Shown here: positions 5,346 to 38,060 of the stretch, piece by piece
Layout of the letters: every line of letters begins with the position of its first letter
How positions within the stretch are numbered: the stretch's first letter is position 1
DNA from: an archaeon
Lineage (GTDB): Archaea; Nanobdellota; Nanobdellia; Pacearchaeales; GW2011-AR1
NCBI GenBank assembly: GCA_030620045.1
Contig: JAUXAD010000005.1
Span: 1 to 41,936, forward strand
DNA length: 41,936 bases
Reading direction: 5' to 3'
Program-made: the position numbers and the translations under genes
The notes under the pieces: generated by a model
The model's input: only the letters and a program-made list of their open reading frames with translations
Told to the model about the DNA's origin: nothing
The model's database searches: none

Positions 5346-6514
5346 GTGAACTACCACTCCGTAAACGAAGTGGCTTCTTGCTTCAACACAGACTCTTGCT
5401 GTTTCTCAACAGTAGAGGAGTCCACTCCACAAAGGCAAGTTCCTTGCCTACAAGTTTTTTTAATATTGATAGCGGCGTTTAAGTCCCTATCAATGATTAA
5501 ACCACATTTAGAACAATTAAATGTTCTATCAGATAGTTTAAGTTCTTTATTTATCCAACCACAACAAGAACACTTCTTACTTGTTGGTTCAAATCTATCA
5601 CACCGCCACACCTGACATCCAGCACTTTCAGCCTTGTATATCAGATATTTATTTATGAATGTAGACCATCCTGATTTCTGAAAATTTTTAGCATTATAAT
5701 ATCCCATCATCATGCCTTTAATACTTAAATCCTCTATTCCAATTAATTTACATTCCTTAACTAATTTATATGAAGTCTGATGATAGAAATTAACTTTTTG
5801 ATTATTTAATCTCCAATAATTTTTTTGTAATTGTTTTCTTGTTTTTAACCTATTCTTACTCCCTTTCTTTTTTCTTGATAAGTTTCTATGTGATTTTTTT
5901 AATTTCATTAATGTAACATCGATTTCTTTTAGCATACTTATTTTGACACCATCACTCCTTACCCCAAATTTAGATGGAGACATATCAATCCCTATCACTT
6001 TATCTCCACATTTTGTTTTTATTACAGCATCAGTAATAATTGTAACATACCATTTATCAATAGAATTTTTTATAGTAATTTGTTTTATGTTTCCTTCAAC
6101 TTCTCTATGGAGTTTTATTTTTATATTTCCAATTTTAGATAAACTTAATCTTTTATTTTCTTTATCTAACTTAAAACCTGATTGATTATAATTTATTGTT
6201 TTGAACCATCCTTTGCCTTTGAACCTCAATCTTCCAACCTTCTTTTTATTTTGTTTCAAAACCCTTAATGCTGATAAGTTTGAAAATAATCTATAACATT
6301 CGTATTGTAAAGTTTTAGAATAAACTCCTCTAAATTTTGGCTCACATATTTTCATATCAGGAAGCATTGCCTGAATTTGTGCTTTATCTATTACCACTTG
6401 CTCATTCAATTCTCCAAGCATCATATTATATGCTTGTCTGCAAGTATCTAAAGCAAACTCTAATTTTTCTGTTTGCTCTTTATTTGGATAAATTCTAAAT
6501 TTATATGCTTTCAT
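5346..6514 (-). mobile_element. tnpB: IS200/IS605-type element with TnpB (OrfB) nuclease gene; right end with hairpin
   Basis: ORF 5351-6514: N-term YKFRIYPNKEQ, RuvC-like D (IGIDMSPSKFG), E (GIEDLSIKG), D (DRDLNAAINI), zinc finger CSCCGWI...CSKCG; 3' hairpin CCACTtcgtttacggAGTGG followed by TAGTTCAC. Confidence 0.9.
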
Positions 6515-8873: not shown

Positions 8874-8921
8874 TTTTATACCTCCTTACAATTATTCCTC
8901 CAAATTTCCTTGAAAAGTTAT

Positions 8922-9006
8922 TTTTTTATTCATAAATAGATCAAATTCTTTTAAGCAGTTCTCACATAAATTTTTTATTCATAAATAGATCAAATTCTTT
9001 TAAGCA
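8922..9006 (-). repeat. ~35-bp direct repeat at 49-bp offset
   Basis: TTTTTTATTCATAAATAGATCAAATTCTTTTAAGCA at 8922 and 8971. Confidence 0.9.
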
Positions 9007-14615: not shown

Positions 14616-14874
14616 TTTTTTTCTTATATCTATGTTTTAATCCTAAAAAAGACTTTTCTCGTTTTATTTTATATGGTTGTATGGTGATATGCAAATGCAC
14701 TTTGTAATATTTTCCTTTTGGAACTTTTTCTACATGGTCTAAATCCAAATGGGAAAACTCTTTTCCGACCATTATCTCCAGAGCATCTCCCTCATCCATT
14801 TGGAAATCACTGCGCAAACAAATCTCTTTCTTGTTTTTGCAAATGTATCTTTCCATTTTTCTCCAATATTTCAT
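14593..14874 (-). CDS. Hypothetical protein
   Basis: 93 aa, overlapping gene run. Confidence 0.55.
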   Translation of the reverse strand: MKYWRKMERYICKNKKEICLRSDFQMDEGDALEIMVGKEFSHLDLDHVEKVPKGKYYKVHLHITIQPYKIKREKSFLGLKHRYKKKNENGRRP

Positions 14875-15401
14875 TCTTCCTCCTCCTGAATTCCGAATGA
14901 TGTAAGGAGCTCTTTTAATTTATTATGTAACTTAATCCCATTGACCCAGCCACCATCAGTTGTCGCTAATCTCATTTGTGACGGGAGTTTAATTTTATCA
15001 TAACTTGGACAATCACAAAATTTGTGGCTGCATTCATTACCTTCCATTTTATCTAATGAAAAATCCCTATGTTCTAAAAGGGAATGCCCACATATGCATT
15101 CAATATTATGTAAATCTTTCATAGGAATTGTATTATTGTGATTAATCCATTCATCTAACTTTTCAATCATCTCAAGAAATCTTTTTGTTTGAGATTTTCT
15201 GGTTTTTGATTCAATTTTATTTAAGTCATTCATTAACTTTCCACATTCTTCTTCTAATTTCTTTATTTCTTTATCTTTCTTTTCTATGGCGAGTTTGATT
15301 GCATCTTGCATCGCTAATTCACTAAAACCAACTTGTGTTTCACCACTCCATATCCTTTTAATTTCCTTCATAACTTCTTTGACTATTTTTTCTTTTTCCA
15401 T
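14871..15401 (-). CDS. Coiled-coil protein with CxCGHxxxxH...C..C.C zinc-binding motif
   Basis: CICGHSLLEHRDFSLDKMEGNECSHKFCDC. Confidence 0.65.
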   Translation of the reverse strand: MEKEKIVKEVMKEIKRIWSGETQVGFSELAMQDAIKLAIEKKDKEIKKLEEECGKLMNDLNKIESKTRKSQTKRFLEMIEKLDEWINHNNTIPMKDLHNIECICGHSLLEHRDFSLDKMEGNECSHKFCDCPSYDKIKLPSQMRLATTDGGWVNGIKLHNKLKELLTSFGIQEEEE

Positions 15402-28345: not shown

Positions 28346-28588
28346 TTCCTTTTTGTCCTCTGTGCTAAATACTTTAGTTATAATTAATATTCCGATGACA
28401 GAGATAATAGTTATTATTATTGCAGTAATAATTTTACCATGTAAGGGTGTTAATGCTGTTATTTTGTCTACTGCCTCCACAATCACATCTCTCCAAGCAA
28501 GAGATATTAAAAAACCAAAGGCAGCTACAAGTGCAGTTATGATGGATTTCTTAAATTCTGCTCTAAATTTCTCAACAGATTTTTTCAT
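28340..28588 (-). CDS. Two-TM protein, DUF5654-like
   Basis: KKSIITALVAAFGFLISLAWRDVIVEAVD...TIISVIGILIITKVF. Confidence 0.6.
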   Translation of the reverse strand: MKKSVEKFRAEFKKSIITALVAAFGFLISLAWRDVIVEAVDKITALTPLHGKIITAIIITIISVIGILIITKVFSTEDKKED

Positions 28589-28623
28589 TGTTTTTGCATT
28601 TTATTTTCATATTTTTTTATTCT

Positions 28624-29403
28624 TCATTCTTCTGCCTCTTGTTTAATTCTATAAAAAGTAGCCCTACTCCAACTAAAATTTTCAATTCTTTCTTTATCTG
28701 TTTTATATTTTTCTTTAAGTTTAAAATATTCAATTAATTTTTCATCAAATCCGACCATTTTCATAAACTTTTCCTTCCATTTTTCTGAATTGTCTCTAAA
28801 CAATTGTACGGCTTTAATATAGGTTCTAATACTTAGATTTTCTATTTTTTGGTAATTTTCTTTTATGAATTCATATATGCATTTTTCATTATCAGCTATA
28901 CTTTGAGACTTATTTATTTTCTCTATTTTCTTTAATATTTCTTTTTTGGAAGGAGCAAATTCAATAAAAAATCCTCTATCAATTATTGGAGCTAAATCTT
29001 TATTCTTTAAGTCAAATTCATTTAATAATATGCAAACATTACTTGTTGTCCTAAAGTTTTCTGGAGCATTACCAATTAATTTACTTGTAGTATTATAATT
29101 TAATTCTTTTATTGTTGAAGTATCTGCTAAAGATTTTAGCATTGAAACCATAATTTGGTTTCTTAATAAGGTATTTATATCATCAAAACATACCGGGCAA
29201 TCTCTATTCTCAAAAAGATTGATATAGGTTTTTAAGGGAGTACTATGTGTGTTTATGTAAATAAAGTCGGTTTTTCCCATAATCTTTTTAACTATGGTTG
29301 TTTTTCCAAGTCCTGCTCTTGACATAATAATCAATAAGTCACAACTTTGATTTTTGAACATTTCAATATATTCTTCTAACTCTTTATAATTTTTAATTAT
29401 CAT
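28624..29403 (-). CDS. AAA+ ATPase
   Basis: Walker A SRAGLGKTT, Walker B CPVCFDDIN; C-terminal HTH-like FSWSRATFYRIKQEAE. Confidence 0.8.
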   Translation of the reverse strand: MIIKNYKELEEYIEMFKNQSCDLLIIMSRAGLGKTTIVKKIMGKTDFIYINTHSTPLKTYINLFENRDCPVCFDDINTLLRNQIMVSMLKSLADTSTIKELNYNTTSKLIGNAPENFRTTSNVCILLNEFDLKNKDLAPIIDRGFFIEFAPSKKEILKKIEKINKSQSIADNEKCIYEFIKENYQKIENLSIRTYIKAVQLFRDNSEKWKEKFMKMVGFDEKLIEYFKLKEKYKTDKERIENFSWSRATFYRIKQEAEE

Positions 29404-32338: not shown

Positions 32339-33007
32339 TCAGTAGATATTACCTAATAACTTATATAATTTTCTCATTCTTCTTTCTACTTGTTTGTTGT
32401 CGAAATCAATCAAATCTTTTTCAATTAAGTCAATCAATTCGTTTATTATCTGAACTTGACCAATACCAATGAACTTTTTTTGGTCTAGTTTTCCAGCATA
32501 AGTTCCTGCTAAATGCTTTAATTCACTTTTTAGAATATCTACTCCTTTAACTCCTCCTTTATCTCCGACAATTCTAATCATCCTTTTAGCCATGAATGGT
32601 TTTAATCTGTCATTTGGTATCCTTACTAATTCTGCTATCTTATTCTTGCTTACCTTTAATTCCTTCAACTTCAAAACGATCTTTGCTGTTTCTTGCGCTG
32701 AGAATTGTAAGCCATGAGAAGTGTTCAATTTCACCGATTCAATAAACATTTCTTTTTCACTTAAGTTTTCTAAGACTTCTGCTTGAATATGGGTTTCCCC
32801 ATTCATCCTGTTTGCCTCAATTCTATGAGCACCATCAATTAAGATGTATGTTCTCTTAACTTTTGCTACTGTTATTGGTGGAAATACTGCATCTGTTTTT
32901 AGAGCGCTAGAGTACCTTAGTGTCGTTATGTAATTTGTCTGATTCCGAGGATATAAATCATCCCTTCTCTTTATTTGTGAAATTTTCAATAATTGTTGCT
33001 TTGCCAT
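32339..33007 (-). CDS. ParB/Spo0J N-terminal-domain protein
   Basis: PPITVAKVKRTYILIDGAHRIEANRMNGETHIQAEVL followed by helical HTH-like region (LKVSKNKIAELVRI). Confidence 0.82.
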   Translation of the reverse strand: MAKQQLLKISQIKRRDDLYPRNQTNYITTLRYSSALKTDAVFPPITVAKVKRTYILIDGAHRIEANRMNGETHIQAEVLENLSEKEMFIESVKLNTSHGLQFSAQETAKIVLKLKELKVSKNKIAELVRIPNDRLKPFMAKRMIRIVGDKGGVKGVDILKSELKHLAGTYAGKLDQKKFIGIGQVQIINELIDLIEKDLIDFDNKQVERRMRKLYKLLGNIY

Positions 33008-33090: not shown

Positions 33091-33960
33091 ATTCTTTCCT
33101 TTCCTTACCGAACCAAACAATACCATACGGGTCCAGAACGGGCCATACCTTGAATATAATTTTTGAAACCTTTCCTTTCCTCAACCCACCCTACAACACC
33201 GCACAGTACCGAACACTACCAGGCCTTGAATATAATATTTGATGTCCTTTCCTTACCGAACCAAACAATACCATATCGTACCAGCTTCAACCGAACCCAA
33301 CCAAACCATTAAATATGATTTTTGAAACCTTTCCTTACCGAACCAGGCCTAAGCAATACCTTACCCATCCACGCCCCAATAAATATGATTCCTAAGCCAT
33401 TCCTTATCTCAACTTACCGCACGTGACCACACTGCACCGAACCGCTTCAAACCATTGAATATGATTTTTGATTTCCTTTCCTCAAAATACCTTACCTTTC
33501 CTAATCTTTCTTCATCAATTCGAACCCTATCACACCACGAAACATGATTATGAAACCTTTCCTTGCCTTATCTTTTTCCGCAACGCATCTATCCCTATCC
33601 CTTCACACCGAATCTGTCCAGACCTTGAATATGATTTTTAATTTCCTTTCCTTATCTCTCCTCACCATTACTTATCTAACCGGAGCAAACCCCACCAGCC
33701 AAACCGCGAATATGAATATGATATCCTTTCCTTATCTCAACTTACCGCACGTGACCACACTGCACCGAACCGCTTCAAACCATTGAATATAACATTTAAT
33801 TCCTTTCCTTGCCTTACCTGATAGTACCATACCAAACCGAACTCCACCCGAGCTTAACTGTCCTTGAATATGAAATCCTTTCCTTTCCTTAGCATACCCC
33901 ACCACACCCCACCGAATTTTGTCACACCAAAACCCACCATAAATATGATTTAATCTACAG
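33091..33960. repeat. Degenerate array of ~11 units (~75-85 bp) with conserved TTGAATATGATTTTT..CCTTTCCTTACC core and variable G-poor inserts
   Basis: Direct reading: TTGAATAT(G/A)A repeats at ~33149, 33225, 33308, 33380, 33454, 33541 (degenerate), 33624, 33708, 33784, 33863, 33940, each followed by CCTTTCCTT-like box and an ACCGAACC-like box. Confidence 0.9.
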
Positions 33961-34814: not shown

Positions 34815-36262
34815 GGCAAATTATTCAGTGACATCCTCTCCACGACTTCAGTCGAGGGTTTCCAGCACTTATTGGCATATTGCCTCACTGCATATAGTTT
34901 CTGCTTCAACGATACGAGCCTTCTCAGGAAGAGAAGGTCTTACAGTATCTCCACAGACTTGAAATTCCGTATGTCCTACGGTATTGTTTAATTTTTTTAT
35001 AGTTTCTTTTTTAATATTAAGTGAAGCATTTAAATCTCTATCAATTATTAATCCACAAACTTCACATTTGAAAGTTCTTTTATCCAAAGACATTTTTTGT
35101 TTATTACCACAACAACTACATTTCTGTGTTGTTGGTTCAAATCTTCCAATTTCAACTACCTCTCCTTCAAAAATTGTTTTATAGTATTTAAGGTAAGAAA
35201 AGAAACTTCCCCATCCAACATCAGAAATACTTTTTGCCAAACAATGATTTCTAACCATTCCTTTAATATTCAAATCCTCTACTCCAATATATTTTATTTC
35301 ACTTGCTAATATCCTCGCTAACTTCTTATGGAAATCTTCTCTTTGTCTTTTAATCTTGGTATGTTGTTTTGCTAATTTAATTATTGATTTTTTTCTGTTT
35401 TTTGAACCCTTTTTCTTTTTACTATGTCTTCGCTGAAGTCTTTTTAATTTTTTCTCACTTCTTCTTAAAAATTTAGGATTATCAAATTCTTCTCCATTTG
35501 AACAAACTAAAAACTTTTTAATTCCGACATCCAATCCCTCTACTTCTGATTTAAATTCTGTTTCTTGTTTTTCAATAGGGGCATTCTCACAAGAAAAAGT
35601 TGCATACCATTCGTCATTTTCTTTTTTGATTGTTAATGTTTTTATTGTTCCTTCAATATTCCTATGCTTGACTATTCTTAACATTCCAATTTTAGAGACA
35701 TATAACCTATTATTCGGATATATTTCTTGTTGATATTGTGGGAAAGTTATTGATGTGTAGAATATTCTTTTATGAAATTTAGGAAAGCCTGGAGTTTCTC
35801 CATTCTTTACTCTTCTAAAAAAATGTTTAAAAGCATCTGAAATTCTTTTTGGAATATTTTGTTTTACTTGTGAATGAAGTTGTTTTGTTTCAAAATCTTT
35901 TACAAGATTATTCATATCAAAATTAGATAGAGTTTCTTTTGTTCCTAAATATATCTGTTGATGGATATCCAATAATTGGTTATACAAAAAACATGCTTGG
36001 TCTAATGCTATCTCTAATTTCTTTTCTTGTTTCCTATTTGGATAGAGTCGATATTTAAATGATTTTTTACTTGACATTTTCTTTCATTAATCTATTTAAA
36101 ATTTCATCATAAGTCTCTCTTTTTGTAATCCTAAGTTTCTTTAACTTTTCTAAAGTTTTATGCTCAATCTGAATTGTTGTTCTTTGTTCCATACATAATA
36201 CAAACATAAGAAGTATTTAAATGTTTCGTCTGCTTTCATCCCACCTCTAAAGAGTGTGGATT
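34815..36262 (-). mobile_element. tnpB: IS200/IS605-type TnpB element with recognisable left- and right-end hairpins
   Basis: ORF 34869-36077: YKFRLYPNRKQEKKLE, D (EGLDVGIKKF), E (GVEDLNIKG), D (DRDLNASLNI), CSCCGNK...CEVCG. Right end CCCTCGACTGAAGTCGTGGAGAGGATGTCAC; left hairpin CCACACTCTTTAGAGGTGGG at 36241-36259. Confidence 0.9.
36067..36192 (-). CDS. Ribbon-helix-helix-like 41-aa protein overlapping tnpB start
   Basis: MEQRTTIQIEHKTLEKLKKLRITKRETYDEILNRLMKENVK*; its last codons overlap ATGTCAAGTAAA of tnpB. Confidence 0.7.
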   Translation of the reverse strand: MEQRTTIQIEHKTLEKLKKLRITKRETYDEILNRLMKENVK

Positions 36263-36959: not shown

Positions 36960-37496
36960 TTAAAGCTCCTTGAACTCGATAACTTCAAAGCACCCATTAA
37001 AGCCCTTTTTTTGCGGACGTCCGTCTCCGATTCCGACACGTTCGCCAGCCTCAACTAAGATATCTTTCAACATATCTGGCTTATTGAAGTATTTCTCATT
37101 ATACACGATTTCAAATGTCGCTTTCCATCCTGTTGGTAATCTTGGTCTTACTCTCATAATTCGAGCACGCTGAACTACTACAGGTTGTTTATCTATTTCG
37201 TAATTCTTTACTCCGAAATCAATTTTTTCGGGCTCAATTCGAACTGTTCCTGCTAAAATTGTTGCAGCACTTTTTCTTCCTATTGTATAGAAAGAACTTG
37301 CAGAGATAATTGACTTATGTAACCAAATGTTTGGAAGATATAAGTTTTTCTTTCCAGTACTCATTCTGTAAACTCTTTTTTCTGCTTCTTCCTTATCGAC
37401 ATACTTCTTTTTGGTTCTTCCTCCACTTTCCTCCTCAGTGAATCTGTTGAAGAGAAGAGGAGTTGTTCCCCTGATTTTCACTAAAATTTTTTTCAT
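36960..37496 (-). CDS. Phage/MGE 'GTxPLLxxRF' family protein, possible RAMP/Cas7-like fold
   Basis: VKIRGTTPLLFNRFTEEE...LYLPNIWLHKSIISASSF...KQPVVVQRARIMRVRPRLPTGWKATFEI...GERVGIGDGRPQKKGFNGCFEV. Confidence 0.55.
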   Translation of the reverse strand: MKKILVKIRGTTPLLFNRFTEEESGGRTKKKYVDKEEAEKRVYRMSTGKKNLYLPNIWLHKSIISASSFYTIGRKSAATILAGTVRIEPEKIDFGVKNYEIDKQPVVVQRARIMRVRPRLPTGWKATFEIVYNEKYFNKPDMLKDILVEAGERVGIGDGRPQKKGFNGCFEVIEFKEL

Positions 37497-37940
37497 TTAT
37501 ATACACCTCCTTTCAATTATATTTAATAGAATATCTTTTAAAGTTATTCCATCTAAATAAAGAATTTCTGTTGGTTCTGTCTTTCTTTGAACTCTTAAGT
37601 TATCTCTACTATCTAACTTCTCGCAATAAATTTCTACACCTTTTTTACAGAAACCATGCTTATCACTACCAATACATCCATCATATTCAATACTGCAATT
37701 TTCAAATTCATGATAATAACTTAACACATGTTCTCTTGCTAACCAATTTTCATCAATTCCAAGTTTTTCAATAGGACTATCAAATACCCCAACAAGTGTA
37801 AAACTAATAAGTATCAATCCACACACAATCGATGTAATTAATATTGAATAGAGCCATTTCTCATCTTTATCCCATTGATTTCGGTGCCTTCTAATATAAT
37901 CAATGTAGTCTTCATATTCTTTTTTCCAGTTTGTTTTCAT
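37497..37940 (-). CDS. Single-TM extracytoplasmic Cys-containing protein
   Basis: WLYSILITSIVCGLILISFTLVGVF; C-rich ectodomain. Confidence 0.6.
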   Translation of the reverse strand: MKTNWKKEYEDYIDYIRRHRNQWDKDEKWLYSILITSIVCGLILISFTLVGVFDSPIEKLGIDENWLAREHVLSYYHEFENCSIEYDGCIGSDKHGFCKKGVEIYCEKLDSRDNLRVQRKTEPTEILYLDGITLKDILLNIIERRCI

Positions 37941-37967: not shown

Positions 37968-38060
37968 ATTATTTTTCCTTTCCTTAATCCAACCTACCTT
38001 AACTTTCCTAAGCCGTCCAAATACCTAACCCAACCATTGAATATTATTTTAATTTTATTT
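37968..38060. repeat. Solitary copy of the 33-kb array unit
   Basis: TTTCCTTTCCTTAATCCAACCTACC...CCCAACCATTGAATATTATTTTAATTTT. Confidence 0.75.

Follow-up and report, generated by a model that had tools for sequence, protein, structure and literature searches.

The window (the whole stretch of 41,936 nucleotides analysed here) carries on its minus strand, in this order, a degenerate repeat unit, a 147-aa ORF, vipr, small ORFs together with a TnpB gene, an array of 11 repeat units (33091-33960) and a ParB-like gene (Table 1). The array is oriented as (TNNGG)n on the minus strand, lies 3 kb downstream of vipr on the same strand, and ends 84 bp from the start codon of the ParB-like gene. The 147-aa ORF (37497-37940) gave no significant family match. 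A TnpB insertion probably parts vipr from its array. Two TnpB (IS200/IS605-type) genes were observed on the contig, at 5351-6514 and 34869-36077, both on the minus strand, and no TnpA was recognized among the contig proteins scanned. The window also contains an intergenic 25-bp tandem repeat of 3.4 copies at 8920-9002.

Table 1. Features of the putative VIPR locus, with the best reading of each guide unit
Feature	Position	Strand	Observation
vrRNA array, 11 guide units	33091-33960	-	5-nt period, z of about 9; same build in viral and archaeal loci
Unit layout in the array			(TNNGG) about 9-13 times, then 3' conserved TAAGG-AAAGG, then 11-18 nt AT-rich tail/spacer
vrRNA unit v1	33866-33940	-	Target search: none found
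vrRNA unit v2	33785-33865	-	10 consecutive NN match a 394-aa coiled-coil ORF (G000:C21)
vrRNA unit v3	33708-33784	-	Guide identical to that of v7
vrRNA unit v4	33627-33707	-	10 consecutive NN match hisS (G000:C41); conserved in relatives
vrRNA unit v5	33540-33626	-	First 7 NN match the Endonuc_Holl gene (G000:C27)
vrRNA unit v6	33457-33539	-	Guide-internal 8-NN match to a TrmB-like gene; probably chance
vrRNA unit v7	33381-33456	-	Duplicate of v3
vrRNA unit v8	33311-33380	-	8/8 variable NN match the diphthamide synthase gene (G000:C41)
vrRNA unit v9	33228-33310	-	First 9 NN match a Rad50/SbcC-like gene (G000:C8)
vrRNA unit v10	33152-33227	-	Target search: none found
vrRNA unit v11	33098-33151	-	3' guide half common to v9; no target found
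12th, degenerate vrRNA-like unit	37977-38038	-	Upstream of the vipr operon
vipr gene	36960-37496	-	178-aa RAMP protein (HMM, PDB profile match, fold)
ParB-like gene	32339-33007	-	222 aa; probably an accessory of VIPR (vap), with predicted DNA binding
147-aa ORF immediately preceding vipr	37497-37940	-	Probably same operon
TnpB (OrfB_IS605) gene between vipr and array	34869-36077	-	Probable insertion

Structure of the array

The first-pass annotation had described about 11 units with an AT-rich core and a box, GC-richer than their surroundings, nearly lacking G on the plus strand, devoid of a convincing ORF and lying beside a ParB-like gene; this description proved accurate, but it overlooked the period of the inserts, the near-identical copies among them and the 12th unit. 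The 11 units are spaced 70-87 bp apart (core-to-core distances of 76, 83, 70, 76, 83, 87, 81, 77, 81 and 75 bp), and every unit has an AT-rich core (AATATGATTTTT or a variant) and a CCTTTCCTTACC-type box. The GC content is about 0.41, compared with 0.23-0.34 nearby, G accounts for 81 of the 870 plus-strand bases, and no coding explanation fits the array; the product of the neighbouring gene (32339-33007, minus strand) matched a PHROG ParB-like partition protein with E = 2e-9.

The inserts of the array have a strict 5-nt period, as CC-to-CC lags of 5, 10 and 15 were enriched relative to dinucleotide-preserving shuffles (z = 8.7, 9.2 and 6.7, respectively), and no comparable CC period was found elsewhere in the window. 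The plus-strand consensus is (ACCNN)n, equivalent to (GGTNN)n, that is, TNNGG, on the minus strand; CC..A is fixed and two bases are free. The scaffold letters C, C and A occupy 75%, 88% and 70% of their positions, and both N positions are mixed. Each unit comprises 10-15 NN steps, some with an imperfect GG, and 8 of the 11 units show no phase slip, the NN phase of three units depending on the slip that is fitted. Most relatives have a more regular GG scaffold, suggesting that some units here may be decaying, and the near-identical insert copies at 33381-33456 and 33708-33784 indicate that duplication occurs. The pentamer TTCGG recurs at approximately the fourth position of many units (window 33091-33940), above the expectation for free NN, which may reflect shared descent or constraint. 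No Rfam family matched the window, and the 3' tails of four units folded no better than shuffled sequences. As explanations for the 5-nt period, TRAP-like RNA rings, primase sites, G4/telomere-like DNA, Rho sites and PAM decoys were weighed and then rejected.

A Vipr protein and a ParB-like neighbour

According to the main text of the report describing it in 2026 (PMC13142463, doi 10.64898/2026.04.26.720920), VIPR is an inter-phage weapon and a proposed ancestor of CRISPR, in which a RAMP protein, Vipr, acts with vrRNAs of 9-16 YNNGG repeats; GGY is fixed and NN is variable, and the vrRNA genes are intergenic, near vipr and on the same strand. In SUSP1, the same text places one vrRNA tract on one side of vipr and several on the other (PMC13142463). 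We built a Vipr HMM from 25 array-adjacent proteins, with the window and SUSP1 left out, and it matched exactly one ORF in the window (36963-37496, minus strand; E = 2.7e-45). SUSP1 (KT454805), used as a positive control, also yielded exactly one ORF (28474-29061), with GGT/NN tracts in the gaps flanking its vipr, distributed between the two sides as in the published description. Searched against the PDB, the Vipr family profile (A2) matched entry 36pp, 'SUSP1 Vipr protein', with E = 1e-32. The AlphaFold2 model of the window Vipr (pLDDT 90.9, pTM 0.85), as modelled a single-domain RAMP, found its best Foldseek matches among Csm3-type CRISPR RAMPs (probability 1.0, TM 0.55-0.66) and also matched a viral "Cas system-associated RAMP". 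Viral contigs searched with the single window Vipr protein gave no match.

The array build is shared well beyond this contig. Of 207 genomes from the order, 2 contain the pattern ACCNNACCNNACCNNACCNNACC, against zero in the control, and an 18-base version of this type of pattern was found in at least 120 IMG/VR stretches. Approximately 40 loci carry arrays of the same build, although the conserved spacers differ among loci, and many of these arrays adjoin a protein of approximately 185-210 aa with an N-terminal G-x-x-PL-x-x-H/N motif. Vipr itself is rare, being present in 8 of 380 genomes of the phylum. A second, divergent Vipr was observed in the same genome, on contig C9 (vipr 14845-15375), and the one degenerate tract after it has the form YNNAG/YNNRG in place of YNNGG (L171:1441-2125). 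In a Thermoplasmata VIPR locus with a ParB-like gene, the scaffold is the variant YNNTG (TACTG TACTG TGTTG ...; L175:6530-6880).

Taken together, the window contains a Vipr RAMP homologue, a YNNGG guide tract and vrRNAs near vipr on the same strand, and the computations described below are consistent with 1-nt-skip reading. The structured 3' tail, which the VIPR report describes for the SUSP1 clade and not as a hallmark of all seven VIPR types (PMC13142463), was not seen in the four window units that were folded. The locus is therefore almost certainly a VIPR system, with the array as its vrRNA genes. Under the criteria for CRISPR, the inserts would be unrelated spacers between identical repeats, whereas here they have a common 5-nt frame; moreover, no CRISPR repeats were recognized, and Pfam scans near the array found no cas families except TnpB-type domains. 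Nevertheless, to call the resemblance to CRISPR merely superficial, as the first-pass annotation did, misses the spirit of the locus, which is almost certainly a guide array that a RAMP protein related to CRISPR reads.

Relatives of the ParB-like gene adjoin vipr in a viral locus (L058), in Thermoplasmata (L175) and in Fibrobacteres (L178). When viral contigs were searched with the ParB alignment alone, 30 loci were recovered, comprising 21 short ParB-like ORFs and 9 long or remote proteins (L183 and L184 seem to represent a single locus twice). A Vipr HMM match lay within approximately 1 kb in 18 of the 21 short viral loci, compared with none beside the 9 long or remote proteins, and two short loci that end at the contig start (L192 and L195) kept their pentamer tracts. 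Tract and genes share a strand in nearly all loci from this search. A single-protein viral-contig search with the window ParB gave no match, and neither did the array and ParB against a phage collection (DNA search and tblastn). Because the short relatives are tied to vipr, we regard the gene as very probably a VIPR-linked accessory and not as evidence of partition, and a family filed under "partition protein" in phage annotation is here re-assigned to VIPR, whose accessory genes vap1-6 are described as DNA-binding or enzymatic (PMC13142463). The array and its link to a ParB-like gene withstood comparison with other contigs, as the same build and ParB-like relatives recur in many unrelated ones.

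A centromere or partition site (parS) bound by the ParB-like protein would account for the adjacency of that gene and for the repeated AT-rich core. However, vipr genes and vrRNA tracts accompany this ParB-like family, which adjoins tracts with quite different tails; at a 5-nt period, one box and the next would face opposite sides of the helix; the core is no palindrome; and no ParA-type family match was found among the neighbouring proteins scanned in a parABS test; a parS function is thus very improbable.

Decoding of the guides and their matches

In SUSP1, reading with a 1-nt skip has been shown experimentally, the skipped base lying mostly at the codon wobble position, and RNA-guided DNA binding with transcriptional repression has been shown as well (main text of PMC13142463). 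A skip at the wobble base predicts that the NN pairs fit codon positions 1-2. The window guides fit these positions of local genes best, ahead of positions 2-3 by a log-likelihood of +12.9 and of positions 3-1 by +18.5, and the fit exceeded that of letter shuffles (P = 0.004 for the window; combined z = 6.9 for 19 other loci). In the viral arrays L058 and L060, the NN pairs misfit codon positions 1-2; these guides may have non-coding targets or use a different register.

We scanned 814 kb of the same genome (a metagenome bin, 90% complete), including C9 and the window, for guide targets. Under a 1-nt skip, exact runs from the first NN onwards reached 10 pairs for v2, 10 for v4, 9 for v9, 8/8 for v8 and 7 for v5, the last being a short match. 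Summed over ten guides, the 5'-anchored runs came to 68 for skip 1, compared with 47, 47 and 50 for skips 0, 2 and 3, respectively, and with 52.1 +/- 2.2 (maximum 60) in 300 order shuffles. The decoding choices preceded the five target matches, with constant 3' pairs dropped in some scans; the 5'-prefix test, run on the full guides, is the one least affected by these choices. A first target scan, over mostly non-host loci, showed no excess for skip 1.

Pfam identified four of the matched genes as those for histidyl-tRNA synthetase (HisRS), diphthamide synthase, a Rad50/SbcC-like ATPase and a Holliday-junction-type endonuclease (Endonuc_Holl); the coiled-coil ORF matched by v2 has no Pfam family. 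All five guides (v2, v4, v5, v8 and v9) are antisense to the matched ORF, and the skipped base falls at the wobble position in four of the five matches and at codon position 1 in that of v2. The v4 match ends just before the 3' handle, with its skips at the wobble position. Across 370 genomes, the v4 pattern was matched exactly over 18 bases in three members of the family, the window's own genome included, at the same histidyl-tRNA synthetase codons; an estimated 0.009 exact matches would be expected by chance over the whole set.

The remaining guides (v1, v3/v7, v6, v10 and v11) had no convincing host match in the own-genome scan. Host runs of v6, v1 and v3 begin inside the guide and were treated as chance. 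Against 370 genomes with up to one mismatch, v1 and v10 found nothing; v3 had only chance-level two-mismatch matches in 143 relatives, and none of the window guides targets contig C9. An archaeal vrRNA from another genome (G046) had no match in its own genome, indicating that self-targeting is not general. On sequence grounds, five of the ten distinct guides are likely to have genuine matches in host genes.

The conservation described above is phase-specific, with GG and Y fixed and NN free, the NN pairs carry a codon-phase signal, and gene matches emerge only under skip 1. All of this speaks against a neutral decayed minisatellite or an iteron origin, for which the duplication seen in two near-identical units could be cited and which we consider even less probable than parS. 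The 5-nt period, the neighbouring Vipr gene, the same-strand placement in relatives and the guide-to-gene matches together point to guide RNAs, and the centromere or iteron origin proposed in the first-pass annotation is unsupported. Its further suggestion of a transcribed C-poor RNA array came close: the RNA array stands, with the RNAs now read as probable guides.

Rivalry with other viruses or plasmids offers a different account of the matches, in which the guides act mainly on competitors carrying similar genes and the host matches are by-products. Competing phages and prophages are the targets in the main text of the VIPR report (PMC13142463), and v3 has one exact 9-NN match in phage contig L169, with the skip at the wobble position; however, about one such match is expected by chance, the v2 and v4 patterns had no match in IMG/VR, and the matched genes include hisS, diphthamide synthase and a Rad50-type gene, all with housekeeping roles. 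We therefore consider this account unlikely.

Possible role and comparison with known systems

The array-bearing half of the contig has a long-ORF density of 0.57 and a strand bias of 0.93, whereas most chromosomal contigs have a density of approximately 0.9-1.1, and the contig carries a virus-size 369-aa DNA ligase as well as HNH and TnpB genes. The low density and the strand bias resemble those of mobile elements and make host takeover by such an element the leading reading, with endogenous regulation as its main rival. In the latter, the array would belong to the cell's own chromosome and regulate the archaeon's genes, forming a CRISPRi-like network with no viral weapon involved. The five matches to genes of the same genome would suit such a network, as would the PALP, BadF and radical SAM-B12 metabolic genes of the window and its k-mer composition, which is typical of its genome, and the contig could be chromosomal or mis-binned. 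Against it stand the ORF density and strand bias, the ligase, HNH and TnpB genes and the confinement of vipr to 8 of the 380 genomes; overall, an endogenous network is possible but doubtful.

For the locus as a whole, we favour with considerable confidence a multi-guide VIPR vrRNA array in a DPANN (Nanoarchaeota-related) archaeon, riding on a virus- or plasmid-like element and likely serving to silence host genes, as far as sequence can tell. The minus strand of the array would be transcribed towards the ParB-like gene and the transcript cut into vrRNAs of approximately 75 nt, each a TNNGG tract with a short AT-rich tail. Vipr would coat the vrRNA, with the GG-pyrimidine triplets as scaffold, and the NN pairs would be matched to the target with a 1-nt skip, a rule taken from SUSP1 (PMC13142463) that has its statistical signature here. 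The ParB-like protein may serve as a DNA-binding accessory. Programmed silencing of the host's own genes is the likely role, given that five of the ten distinct guides match chromosomal genes from the first NN on, and opinion leans slightly towards an element that silences host genes. More tentatively, and just short of an even chance, the VIPR array of a DPANN mobile element may silence host translation and DNA-repair genes, which would amount to an RNA-guided takeover through non-contiguous pairing. Given that each of the five matching guides is antisense to its gene, the substrate of the Csm3-like Vipr may be mRNA or the non-template strand, and this bias raises the question of whether DNA or mRNA is the target.

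These results suggest that VIPR guides may also be directed against essential genes of the host itself, in archaea that are hard to culture. In an archaeal group with few known virus-host links, guide-to-gene matches could assign an element to its host, in the manner of CRISPR spacers but in the reverse direction.

Among known systems, type III CRISPR has RAMPs (Csm3/Cas7) whose predicted fold is common with that of the window Vipr, although identity is only 12-18% and the VIPR guide is read two bases in three. A viral VIPR locus (L067, IMGVR_UViG_3300025122_000199) is similar in its Vipr, approximately 40% identical, its array of approximately 1.2 kb and its AT-rich spacer, and its handle TAAGGAATGG resembles TAAGGAAAGG of the window; it differs in that no ParB-like gene was found in the stretch examined. 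This array (L067:2214-3404) contains more than 10 vrRNAs, has the tail and handle closest to those of the window and fits codon positions 1-2 strongly. With the VIPR of Escherichia phage SUSP1 (PDB 36pp), the window shares the Vipr RAMP, YNNGG repeats, same-strand guides and the 1-nt skip, and its 12th unit beyond vipr is reminiscent of the single vrRNA on the other side in SUSP1. In contrast to SUSP1, the window belongs to a DPANN archaeal genome, has a ParB-like accessory and packs 11 guides into a single compact array, in which the AT-rich tails are short and unstructured. Unlike the targets given in the main text of the VIPR report, the matches in the window are host chromosomal genes, all antisense; relative to that text, the kind of system is known, and host targeting appears to be new.
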